Shown here in pieces: positions 33,369 through 35,840 of a stretch of DNA of 64,000 bases; within the stretch, counting starts at the first letter, position 1, and every line of letters starts with the position of its first letter. The position numbers were made by a program, and so were the translations under genes. The notes under the pieces are model-generated. The model saw nothing but the letters and a program-made list of their open reading frames with translations, did no database searches and was not told the DNA's origin. Source of the DNA: Fibrobacter sp. UWB4 (GTDB lineage: Bacteria; Fibrobacterota; Fibrobacteria; Fibrobacterales; Fibrobacteraceae); assembly GCF_002210345.1 (NCBI RefSeq), contig NZ_MWQI01000001.1:1116001-1180000 (forward strand). The letters run 5' to 3'.

Positions 33369-33381
33369 AATAATAGCTGTA

Positions 33382-33410
33382 ATGCCGGCCTTCGGGTCGG
33401 CATTTGTTGT
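33382..33410 (+). terminator. Rho-independent terminator of ilvBN
   Basis: ATGCCGGCC-TTC-GGGTCGGCAT stem (one G.T pair) followed by TTGTTGTTT. Confidence 0.75.
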
Positions 33411-33548: not shown

Positions 33549-34118
33549 ATGAAAATCGAGAAGAAGAAAATCATCAATAGTTCACGTTTGTCCAGCACCA
33601 CTAAAGCTGGAATCGCATCAATGCTCGGCATGTCCGCCGTCTTGATGAGCGGCTGCCTAGGCGAAGCCGAAAGCGGTCAAGTTGTCGGCCCTATTGAGCC
33701 GGACAACAACAACCCGAACAGCAGCGACGATTCCGAAGGCCCAGAAATTGCATCCAGCTCCTCTGTAGCCGATATTCCGCTGAGCCACGAACACCTCAGT
33801 AGCGAAGCGGTCGAAGCGCTTTCTTCTTCGGCCATGGATACGCCGAACAGCTCGTCCGAGAACCTCGCCAGCTCTTCTTCAGAAGCCCCCACCAGCTCAG
33901 CAGAAGAAGTCCTCAGCAGTTCTTCCGAAAATTCCAGCAGTTCTTTTGTGGAAAAGCCACTCAGCTCATCAAGTGACTCAGTCGTCCCTCCATGGCCAAG
34001 AGAAAAAACATGCGAAACGGTAGACTCCACAGGAATCCACGTCATTATGTGCCATGACGATGATCGCGGCATGATGGCAAGCATGGTTTCCACATACGAA
34101 ATGCTTGACTTGTCCTAA
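33549..34118 (+). CDS. Ser-rich lipoprotein A, putative radical SAM substrate
   Basis: 189 residues from ATG 33549, with AAGGAGA 6 nt upstream. It has an unusual long basic N-region (MKIEKKKIINSSRLSS), a hydrophobic stretch and lipobox MSGC (Cys36). Residues ~60-150 are Ser-rich blocks (SSSSVAD, EHLSSEAVEALSSSA, ENLASSSSEA, ENSSSSF). The C-terminus holds two Cys and ends with CHDDDRGMMASMVSTYEMLD. N-terminus, the HLSSEAxEALSS segment and the C-terminal SMVxT(Y/F)E motif are shared with the next gene. Followed at 34144 by the paralogue and at 34746 by a radical SAM/SPASM enzyme. I infer it is a modified surface lipoprotein or RiPP-like precursor; no known family is recognised. Confidence 0.75.
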   Translation: MKIEKKKIINSSRLSSTTKAGIASMLGMSAVLMSGCLGEAESGQVVGPIEPDNNNPNSSDDSEGPEIASSSSVADIPLSHEHLSSEAVEALSSSAMDTPNSSSENLASSSSEAPTSSAEEVLSSSSENSSSSFVEKPLSSSSDSVVPPWPREKTCETVDSTGIHVIMCHDDDRGMMASMVSTYEMLDLS

Positions 34119-34143
34119 TTGAATTTTGTAGTCTGGGATAATT

Positions 34144-34749
34144 ATGAAGATCGAGAAGAAAAAAGTCGTTAAAAGCTCAAAATTGAGCAATTTTGCTAAA
34201 AGCGCGGTCGCAGCCGCACTCGGAATCGCAGCATCCATCGGGACAACAGCCTGCGATGACAGCATATCCGCCATCGGCGGCGACAAAAAGCAAGAACCCG
34301 AACCGACATGCGGTGAAGTCGAATGCGGAAGCGAGTTCAGCAGCTCTAGCTACACCGACATTTCTTCAAGCGGCGAGCACCTCAGCAGCGAAGCCATTGA
34401 AGCACTTTCGTCTGCCAAACAGCCCAAAAGCAGTTCTTCAATAATCTCGGCAGGCATCCCTCACACTTATTCGTCATCGTCCGTCAAACAACCTAGCAGT
34501 TCGTCTTACGAGCCGCCCCTACAAGCGGGCATCCTCCCGCCGTACGAAGATTCTTCTTCAAGCGAAACGCCATCAAGCTCGTCCGAGGAAAAGTCTAGTA
34601 GCAGCGAAGCCGATATCCCAGATCCACGGATTATACCTGTCATAGACACGCTCAGCCCCCGCATCCACCTCTGCGAAGATCCAAACGATCCACGCTGCCT
34701 TATCGAAAGCATGGTGACGACATTCGAACAAGATGACATCCAAGCATGA
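34144..34749 (+). CDS. Ser-rich lipoprotein B, paralogue of A, putative radical SAM substrate
   Basis: 201 residues. Same layout as lipoprotein A: basic N-region MKIEKKKVVKSSKLSN, hydrophobic segment, lipobox TTAC (Cys37), a CGEVECG pair, Ser-rich blocks (FSSSSYTDISSSGEHLSS, KSSSSIIS, PSSSSEEKSSSSE), then a C-terminal region with CEDPNDPRCLIESMVTTFEQDD. Its stop TGA overlaps the ATG of the radical SAM gene (ATGA), so enzyme and protein B are translationally coupled. It differs from A in having a Pro-rich linker (EPPLQAGILPPYE) and an extra Cys in the C-terminal core. Ribosome-binding site weak (GGGA). Confidence 0.75.
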   Translation: MKIEKKKVVKSSKLSNFAKSAVAAALGIAASIGTTACDDSISAIGGDKKQEPEPTCGEVECGSEFSSSSYTDISSSGEHLSSEAIEALSSAKQPKSSSSIISAGIPHTYSSSSVKQPSSSSYEPPLQAGILPPYEDSSSSETPSSSSEEKSSSSEADIPDPRIIPVIDTLSPRIHLCEDPNDPRCLIESMVTTFEQDDIQA

Positions 34750-35840
34750 ATTTAGTCCTTTGCCTTACAGAACAGTGTAATTTACGTTGTACCTACTGCT
34801 ATTACAAGGAATCGCAAGCGGACCGCAAAACGGTCATGGACGATGCAACCCTCGAGCAGGCCATCAAAATTGCCCTCGACCGCACGATATTCTTTAAGCA
34901 GTCGTACTTGAACATCACGTTCTTTGGGGGGGAGCCGCTTTTGCGAAGAGATGCTATTTATAAAGGTGTCGAATTCGCAAAGGCGGTTGTCGATGATGCG
35001 ATGGATAGTGGCAAAATTTCCAAGAACTTCAGGTTGCAATTTGCGGTCAACACGAACGGTACGCTTTTTGACGATGAATTCTTTGATTTTTGCGAAAAGG
35101 AACATTTCCGCATTTATCTTTCCCTCGACGGGCCAGAAAAACATCACGACATCGCCCGACGCACTGTAAGCGGAACCGGAAGTTTCAAGGCAATCGAAAA
35201 GCACATTCCCCGATTTGCAAAACTCGGCGCAGTCGCATTGAGCACTGTTACACGCGCTCACGTCAGCACAATTTTCGAAAGTGTCAAATGGCTTCACGAA
35301 CAAGGTTTCCAGAGCCTCACGACGAGCGTCGATTTTGACGGCAAATGGACAAGCGAAGATTTCGACAAGCTCGCCTTGCAATACCAGAAAATGGCTGAGT
35401 ACTGGAGAGCATGCCGCGAGAAAGGCGACAAGTTCTTCCTTGGTACAATCCACGACAAAATAAAGATAACGCTCATAAATTCGCGATACAGATTGTATTC
35501 TTGCCATGTGTATAATGGCGCAATCGGCGTCGCGACAAACGGAAATATGTTCCCCTGCACGCGATTTATAACATCAAACCCAAACACCCATTACGTGCAG
35601 GGGAATGTATTCACAGGCTTTGACGAAAAAGCATGTGAAGAGATTCGTCAGTTCCTAGACAGCGACAAGAAAGAATGCGAAGGGTGCGACATCCGCTACC
35701 GCTGTTGCGCCCACGAATGCGCATGCACCAGCTTCTACACGACAGGAACAATTGAAGGCGTATCGCCCGAAGTGTGCACACACGAAAGAATGCTCGCAGA
35801 TATTTGCGATACGCTGCTAGAGAAGATGGCACAAAACTAA
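34746..35840 (+). CDS. Radical SAM/SPASM peptide-modifying enzyme
   Basis: 364 residues. The radical SAM cluster motif CNLRCTYCYY (Cys11, 15, 18) lies at the N-terminus, with the GGEPLL motif (FFGGEPLLRRD) and NTNGT for SAM binding. A C-terminal SPASM domain follows, with CHVYNGAIGVATNGNMFPCTRF, then CEGCDIRYRCCAHECAC, matching the Cx2Cx5Cx3C auxiliary [4Fe-4S] pattern. Anaerobic sulfatase-maturase and RiPP-maturase relatives have this layout. No sulfatase gene is nearby. Coupling to two paralogous lipoproteins suggests these are its substrates. A RRE-like recognition domain is not evident, so substrate docking may rely on the conserved lipoprotein ends. Confidence 0.88.
   Translation: MNLVLCLTEQCNLRCTYCYYKESQADRKTVMDDATLEQAIKIALDRTIFFKQSYLNITFFGGEPLLRRDAIYKGVEFAKAVVDDAMDSGKISKNFRLQFAVNTNGTLFDDEFFDFCEKEHFRIYLSLDGPEKHHDIARRTVSGTGSFKAIEKHIPRFAKLGAVALSTVTRAHVSTIFESVKWLHEQGFQSLTTSVDFDGKWTSEDFDKLALQYQKMAEYWRACREKGDKFFLGTIHDKIKITLINSRYRLYSCHVYNGAIGVATNGNMFPCTRFITSNPNTHYVQGNVFTGFDEKACEEIRQFLDSDKKECEGCDIRYRCCAHECACTSFYTTGTIEGVSPEVCTHERMLADICDTLLEKMAQN

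Follow-up and report, generated by a model that had tools for sequence, protein, structure and literature searches.

Lipoproteins modified by RiPP-type enzymes have been demonstrated only recently, and for an enzyme class other than the one described here: in the DAG-RiPPs, modification of lipoproteins by MNIO enzymes was shown by mass spectrometry (PMC12636315). These proteins carry a lipoprotein signal, are modified in a C-terminal core and are made by a short pathway without a leader protease. Radical SAM/SPASM enzymes of the TIGR04133 family likewise adjoin a lipoprotein (TIGR04134). PapB (NF047865) has an N-terminal RRE region and acts on short CX3D peptides, in which it links CX3D/E. It tolerates Cys-Xn-Asp with n = 0-6 as well as Cys-Glu (PMC9413430). 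CteB, a SCIFF maturase of solved structure (5wgg/5why), also has an N-terminal RRE domain, and its Aux I cluster has an open site (PMC6231123). The FibroRumin radical SAM family (TIGR04136) is another peptide-maturase family, named after Fibrobacter and Ruminococcus. QhpD/PeaB (TIGR03906) modifies a protein subunit and not a short peptide.

The locus analyzed here lies in a 64,000-nucleotide window of the Fibrobacter sp. UWB4 genome (contig NZ_MWQI01000001.1, positions 1,116,001 to 1,180,000). As in the DAG-RiPPs, putative precursors with a lipobox are encoded beside a RiPP-type enzyme; however, this enzyme is a radical SAM protein instead of an MNIO enzyme, and the putative substrates are unrelated. 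Lipoproteins modified by RiPP enzymes being already known for MNIO, we would not count the Fibrobacter system as a new category unless its chemistry proves to be new. The open-licence literature yielded nothing relevant on this enzyme family or on radical SAM-lipoprotein pairs in Fibrobacter.

Layout of the locus and relationships of its enzyme

Three close-packed genes on the forward strand make up the locus. LP1 (33549-34118; 189 amino acids) and LP2 (34144-34749; 201 amino acids) are putative Ser-rich lipoproteins (25% and 23% Ser) with the lipobox cysteine at Cys36 and Cys37, respectively, and represent class I of the partner types described below. The third gene (34746-35840) encodes a 364-residue radical SAM/SPASM enzyme, and its start codon overlaps the LP2 stop codon in the sequence ATGA. 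All three open reading frames and this overlap were confirmed as an earlier note on this DNA had described them, including the paralogy of the two lipoproteins: their N-terminal 40 residues align with a score of 86 (maximum of 50 in 2000 shuffles) and their C-terminal tails with a score of 51 (maximum of 41 in 2000 shuffles), so that LP1 and LP2 are true paralogues. The same note had seen no sulfatase, transporter or peptidase and had recognized no family for the lipoproteins. Indeed, none of these genes is evident in the immediate neighbourhood of the trio, and neither lipoprotein matches any NCBIfam lipoprotein model. A glycosyl hydrolase family 8 (GH8) gene, identified with Pfam, follows the enzyme gene on the opposite strand. 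On the other side, a scan found an intrinsic-terminator-like stem-loop of putative function with a 10-pair stem (33381-33404, forward strand) 3' of ilvN, which would set the trio apart from the upstream ilvBN genes.

Each lipoprotein consists of a long conserved N-terminal region that reaches to the lipobox Cys (33549-33656 in LP1, starting with MKIEKKK; 34144-34254 in LP2), a Ser-rich middle of variable sequence and a C-terminus with the conserved form hxhC...SMV[TS]T[FY][ED]xxD. The C-terminal core, as delimited by tail conservation and core comparison, reads CETVDSTGIHVIMCHDDDRGMMASMVSTYEMLDLS in LP1 (34011-34115) and CEDPNDPRCLIESMVTTFEQDDIQA in LP2 (34672-34746), all on the forward strand. 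The lipobox Cys is found at residue 36-37 in 63 out of 72 partner lipoproteins, as opposed to a median of 22 in a noisy set of 44 other predicted lipoproteins that includes a few distant partner lipoproteins. This position implies a conserved N-terminal extension ahead of the hydrophobic stretch, possibly a recognition leader fused to the signal peptide. Speaking against its specificity, orphan proteins with the same extension exist with no radical SAM gene adjoining, one of them in a genome (G060, 84% complete) in which the enzyme family was not found; the N-terminus is therefore not specific to the enzyme. Orphans with the long extension are encoded at L188 3016-3507, L189 2902-3258, L192 175-684, L193 3034-3459, L195 3061-3429, L196 3240-3608, L200 2347-2679 and L201 3014-3361. 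Those of the type found at L195, L196 and L201 have no lipobox Cys, and several orphan tails read TAGMPYYD, TAGIPYYD or LAGIMEDS.

The enzyme contains the CX3CX2C motif of radical SAM clusters (Cys11, Cys15 and Cys18; 34776-34799, forward strand) and, in its SPASM region (35502-35777, forward strand), eight invariant cysteines (Cys253, 271, 311, 314, 320, 325, 327 and 344) with the signature C325-x-C327, which together place it among the radical SAM/SPASM proteins. The Pfam Radical_SAM model (PF04055) scores 64 bits, but the SPASM model (PF13186) only 15.2 bits against a cut-off of 21.5. In a search of the enzyme against family profiles, as had been proposed earlier, the top NCBIfam match is PapB, with 212.5 bits over the whole enzyme, yet this stays under the cut-off of 340, as do the scores of all other named families tested. 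PapB is followed by QhpD (TIGR03906, 143 bits; cut-off 453), which differs in substrate and context, and by the nif11 and SCIFF maturases, each far under its cut-off. Membership was likewise rejected for the FibroRumin family (45.9 bits; cut-off 400) and for the anaerobic sulfatase maturases (TIGR03942, 101 bits; cut-off 349). The model of TIGR04133, the family that shares the lipoprotein neighbour, gives 25.3 bits (cut-off 425). Two true TIGR04133 enzymes (623 and 593 bits) are encoded in the same genome, each with a small lipoprotein upstream (L202 and L203; L003 227-1788 and L004 248-1788). The TIGR04134 model matches neither LP1 and LP2 nor the lipoproteins beside these two enzymes, and the latter are not recognized by any other NCBIfam model either. 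To judge from the profile scores, two unrelated radical SAM-lipoprotein systems appear to coexist in one genome, and neither the present enzyme family nor its lipoproteins seems to fit any named family tested.

In an AlphaFold model of the enzyme (mean pLDDT of 89), the best fold match is CteB (Z of 32.6 over 334 residues at 2.9 Å), followed by ChlB and anSME; CteB 5wgg is also the best solved relative (E of 1.3e-42). The match to CteB does not begin before CteB residue 94 or 99, so the enzyme lacks an N-terminal RRE domain. By both sequence and predicted fold, its closest relatives are peptide or protein maturases, which favours a maturase role. The C325-x-C327 signature is present in all 86 enzymes of our tree, including relatives from Saprospiraceae and Oscillospiraceae, and is absent from a true PapB (L112, 434 bits), from the other RRE-bearing maturases in the set and from CteB. 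Cys327 may occupy the Aux I position left open in CteB, and its invariance weakens the assumption of an open Aux I cluster in the present enzyme.

Enzyme clades and their partner proteins

Enzyme homologues (at least 68% identity) and matches to a class I lipoprotein profile, A2 (E of 1e-15 or better), were searched in the same 61 Fibrobacter genomes. The close enzyme and the strong lipoprotein matches occur in one and the same set of 33 genomes, and the lipoprotein genes adjoin the enzyme gene. The chance of identical sets would be 5e-18 for independent genomes, a value that overstates independence because the genomes are related. The final lipoprotein gene overlaps the enzyme gene by ATGA in 27 of the 32 loci counted, with one to four lipoprotein copies in tandem. 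At L037 and L040, as many as four class I lipoproteins with differing cores stand in tandem, and one contig of genome G037 carries two tandem enzyme-lipoprotein units. The co-occurrence that the earlier note had wished to see checked is thus complete, and a dedicated enzyme-lipoprotein pair distinct from TIGR04133 is strongly supported by these genome comparisons. That note had also expected that homologues of the enzyme would not regularly occur without the lipoproteins. This holds for the close homologues (33 out of 33), but not for the wider family, in which one enzyme clade regularly lacks them and stands beside a cytosolic-looking protein. The enzyme family itself is nearly limited to Fibrobacter; three further genera of the bacterial family contribute a handful of members.

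Reading the neighbours of 79 enzymes gave four partner types. Type I, to which LP1 and LP2 belong, comprises the MKIEKKK lipoproteins with the C-terminus given above; type II, lipoproteins ending in SM[PA]...GHI..PL..V; and type III, lipoproteins beginning M[DN]I[RK]K.K.EKNREWS, together with looser relatives in other genera. Type IV is not a lipoprotein but a short, Lys-rich, mostly Cys-free and cytosolic-looking protein of about 70-180 amino acids, whose gene mostly lies 50-70 bp downstream of the enzyme gene. Clade IV loci (L043, L059, L062, L064, L066-L069, L071-L084 and L182) encode a partner protein with Gly/Pro patches, and some of these pairs adjoin hemB/hemL-like or purF-like genes. 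When partner labels were placed on a quick-search tree of 86 enzyme sequences (labels taken from neighbours, a few assigned by hand, L050 unassigned), three changes sufficed for the four groups, which is the minimum, compared with a mean of 39.5 for shuffled labels. Partner type therefore tracks enzyme clade, so that enzyme and partner have co-diversified, a pattern that fits an enzyme-substrate relation.

Class I tails were defined by SM[VAI][STI]T[FYL][ED] near the end of the protein. In the 42 distinct tails, two further features are kept: an Asp or Glu three residues past this segment (motif +9) and a Cys that precedes the segment by a varying number of residues, mostly 9-15. This core Cys is present in all 51 class I lipoproteins, mostly as C-x-D with the Asp two residues on; in the 42 distinct tails it is the single invariant Cys, and no conserved CX3D/E repeat was found. 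A DNA pattern for MV[ST]T[FY][ED] recovers the lipoprotein cores plus one further site outside the cluster in nearly every genome; the extra site also occurs in genomes without the enzyme and was taken as unrelated and not as a trans-substrate.

Comparisons between species reveal that the last ~50 codons of the lipoprotein change type while the remainder stays similar. Between L021 and L023, the first 120 nt of the lipoprotein gene are 98% identical, the middle 90% and the enzyme gene 91.5%, but the core only 43%; the core of L021 is instead 98% identical to that of L025. Conversely, L008 and L015 share a core at 83% identity, whereas the remaining lipoprotein is only 53-56% identical. We read these exchanges as probable recombination that diversifies a functional tip and leaves the enzyme in place.

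The C-x-C signature was also sought in 38 enzymes of named genomes that are more distantly related. It is present in six, identically spaced and in no case together with an RRE-sized extension at the N-terminus. A predicted lipoprotein adjoins four of the six, compared with two of 30 others (p of 0.003; regex-based test, devised post hoc and leaving out two cases of odd spacing). The four are from Bacteroidota, Bacillota, Myxococcota and Planctomycetota, and a fifth C-x-C enzyme, from a Clostridiales MAG, overlaps the gene of a secreted repeat protein. These observations suggest that SPASM enzymes linked to lipoproteins form an unnamed group that extends beyond Fibrobacter. C-x-C SPASM enzymes of this kind are found at L109, L110, L111, L115 and L130, from Saprospiraceae, Oscillospiraceae, Myxococcales, Planctomycetota and Clostridiales. 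In other loci, radical SAM/SPASM enzymes without C-x-C adjoin proteins (L114 2409-5152, L121 3623-6251 and L122 2599-5122) that may have twin-arginine signals and/or contain Cys-rich repeats; these are candidates for large secreted, Cys-crosslinked precursors.

Readings of the chemistry

The best family match and the closest solved structure, PapB and CteB, both point to a ranthipeptide-like thioether, in which the core Cys would be joined to an Asp/Glu (or Thr) close by in CxD or SMV[TS]T[FY]E, looping the tip of the lipoprotein. As in PapB substrates, LP1, LP2 and their clade carry a Cys near Asp/Glu, and in class I this Cys is invariant with Asp mostly two residues on. Nevertheless, the enzyme remains under the PapB cut-off (212 of 340), its substrates would be lipoproteins and not short CX3D peptides, the N-terminal domain of PapB and CteB is missing, and the invariant C325-x-C327, which may fill Aux I, has no counterpart in either. 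Moreover, many partners in the sister clades are free of Cys besides the lipobox (13 out of 21 in class III). A Cys thioether is thus possible for the clade of LP1 and LP2 but, given the Cys-free partners of sister clades, would not explain the family as a whole; we hold it to be one candidate, less likely than not. Some other, Cys-independent modification common to the Cys-free sister clades seems about as likely as the thioether. Of the target residues that the earlier note had named in the conserved ends, the C-terminal Cys and the segment of Ser, Thr, Tyr/Phe and Glu/Asp are indeed conserved in class I, but the Cys-free partners make it unlikely that the chemistry of the family is based on Cys alone. 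From these partners in clades III and IV it follows that the chemistry would be either Cys-independent or clade-specific. A specific Cys-independent site would account for them: the motif xG[ILMVDE][PVI], which recurs in the mature lipoproteins (alternatively the SM..T segment) and is shared by clades I-III; we rate this slightly below the thioether. The motif exceeds its count in shuffled sequences in class III (54 versus 6.7), class I (25 versus 6.6) and class II (5 versus 1.3), for a pattern picked after inspecting the sequences, and is not enriched in other Ser-rich Fibrobacter open reading frames (6 versus 4.5). However, fewer than half of the class I lipoproteins contain it (15 of 32), LP1 does not, and it could be a binding or turn motif. 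It is also not enriched in class IV (6 versus 3.3, with 49 of 500 shuffles as high) and is unconvincing in the Oscillospiraceae and Clostridiales partners, for which reason it was rejected as a family-wide target.

That the enzyme acts on another substrate altogether, a small metabolite or another protein, with the lipoproteins as mere functional partners such as product receptors, is improbable. The orphans with the same N-terminus would suit this reading, but the nearest enzyme relatives are peptide or protein maturases, the operon has no biosynthetic genes and partner type follows enzyme clade. In addition, the switch of clade IV to a small cytosolic-looking protein suits substrates better than receptors. 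Maturation of the anaerobic sulfatase type, converting Ser or Cys to formylglycine, is very improbable: anSME is a close fold relative, but TIGR03942 scores 101 bits of the 349 needed, the partners match no sulfatase model and a CxPxR-type motif is not conserved in their cores.

A proposed lipoprotein maturase and its significance

The constant placement of the enzyme gene directly behind lipoproteins with a conserved, exchangeable tail leads us to infer that the enzyme very probably modifies its adjacent lipoproteins chemically. We consider it likely, as a single joint proposition, that LP1, LP2 and the enzyme form a small autonomous operon, that the enzyme is their dedicated, RiPP-like lipoprotein maturase, and that the core is where function and variability reside, being exchanged as a cassette from one species to another around a constant enzyme. 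The maturase role is well supported by the genomic evidence, while the modification with its position and chemistry, the export of the protein and its display at the surface are put forward as a model. According to this model, the preprolipoprotein would be synthesized in the cytoplasm and recognized through its long conserved N-terminus and/or the C-terminal motif, and the conserved core would be modified by 5'-deoxyadenosyl-radical chemistry. Export, lipidation at Cys36/37 and anchoring through the ordinary lipoprotein pathway would follow, and the modified tail would be displayed on a flexible Ser-rich stalk. The most likely targets in the clade of LP1 and LP2 would be the invariant core Cys and the SMV[TS]T[FY][ED] segment.

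The Fibrobacter pair would constitute a genus-wide radical SAM counterpart of the MNIO-modified lipoproteins, with four partner types, in a major fibre-degrading rumen bacterium. Its three-gene design is compact and easy to express, and the putative modified segment is naturally swapped while the enzyme remains unchanged. A broader proposal, which we regard as speculative, is that RRE-less C-x-C SPASM enzymes across phyla, possibly with a fully ligated Aux I, carry out Cys-independent radical modification of secreted lipoproteins and, in one clade, of a cytosolic basic protein; if true, both the reaction and this class of modified surface proteins, whose cores can be swapped, would be new. For Fibrobacter, the proposed maturation would, if true, represent a new way of decorating surface proteins and would offer a tractable test of the role of the tail in adhesion, recognition or competition.
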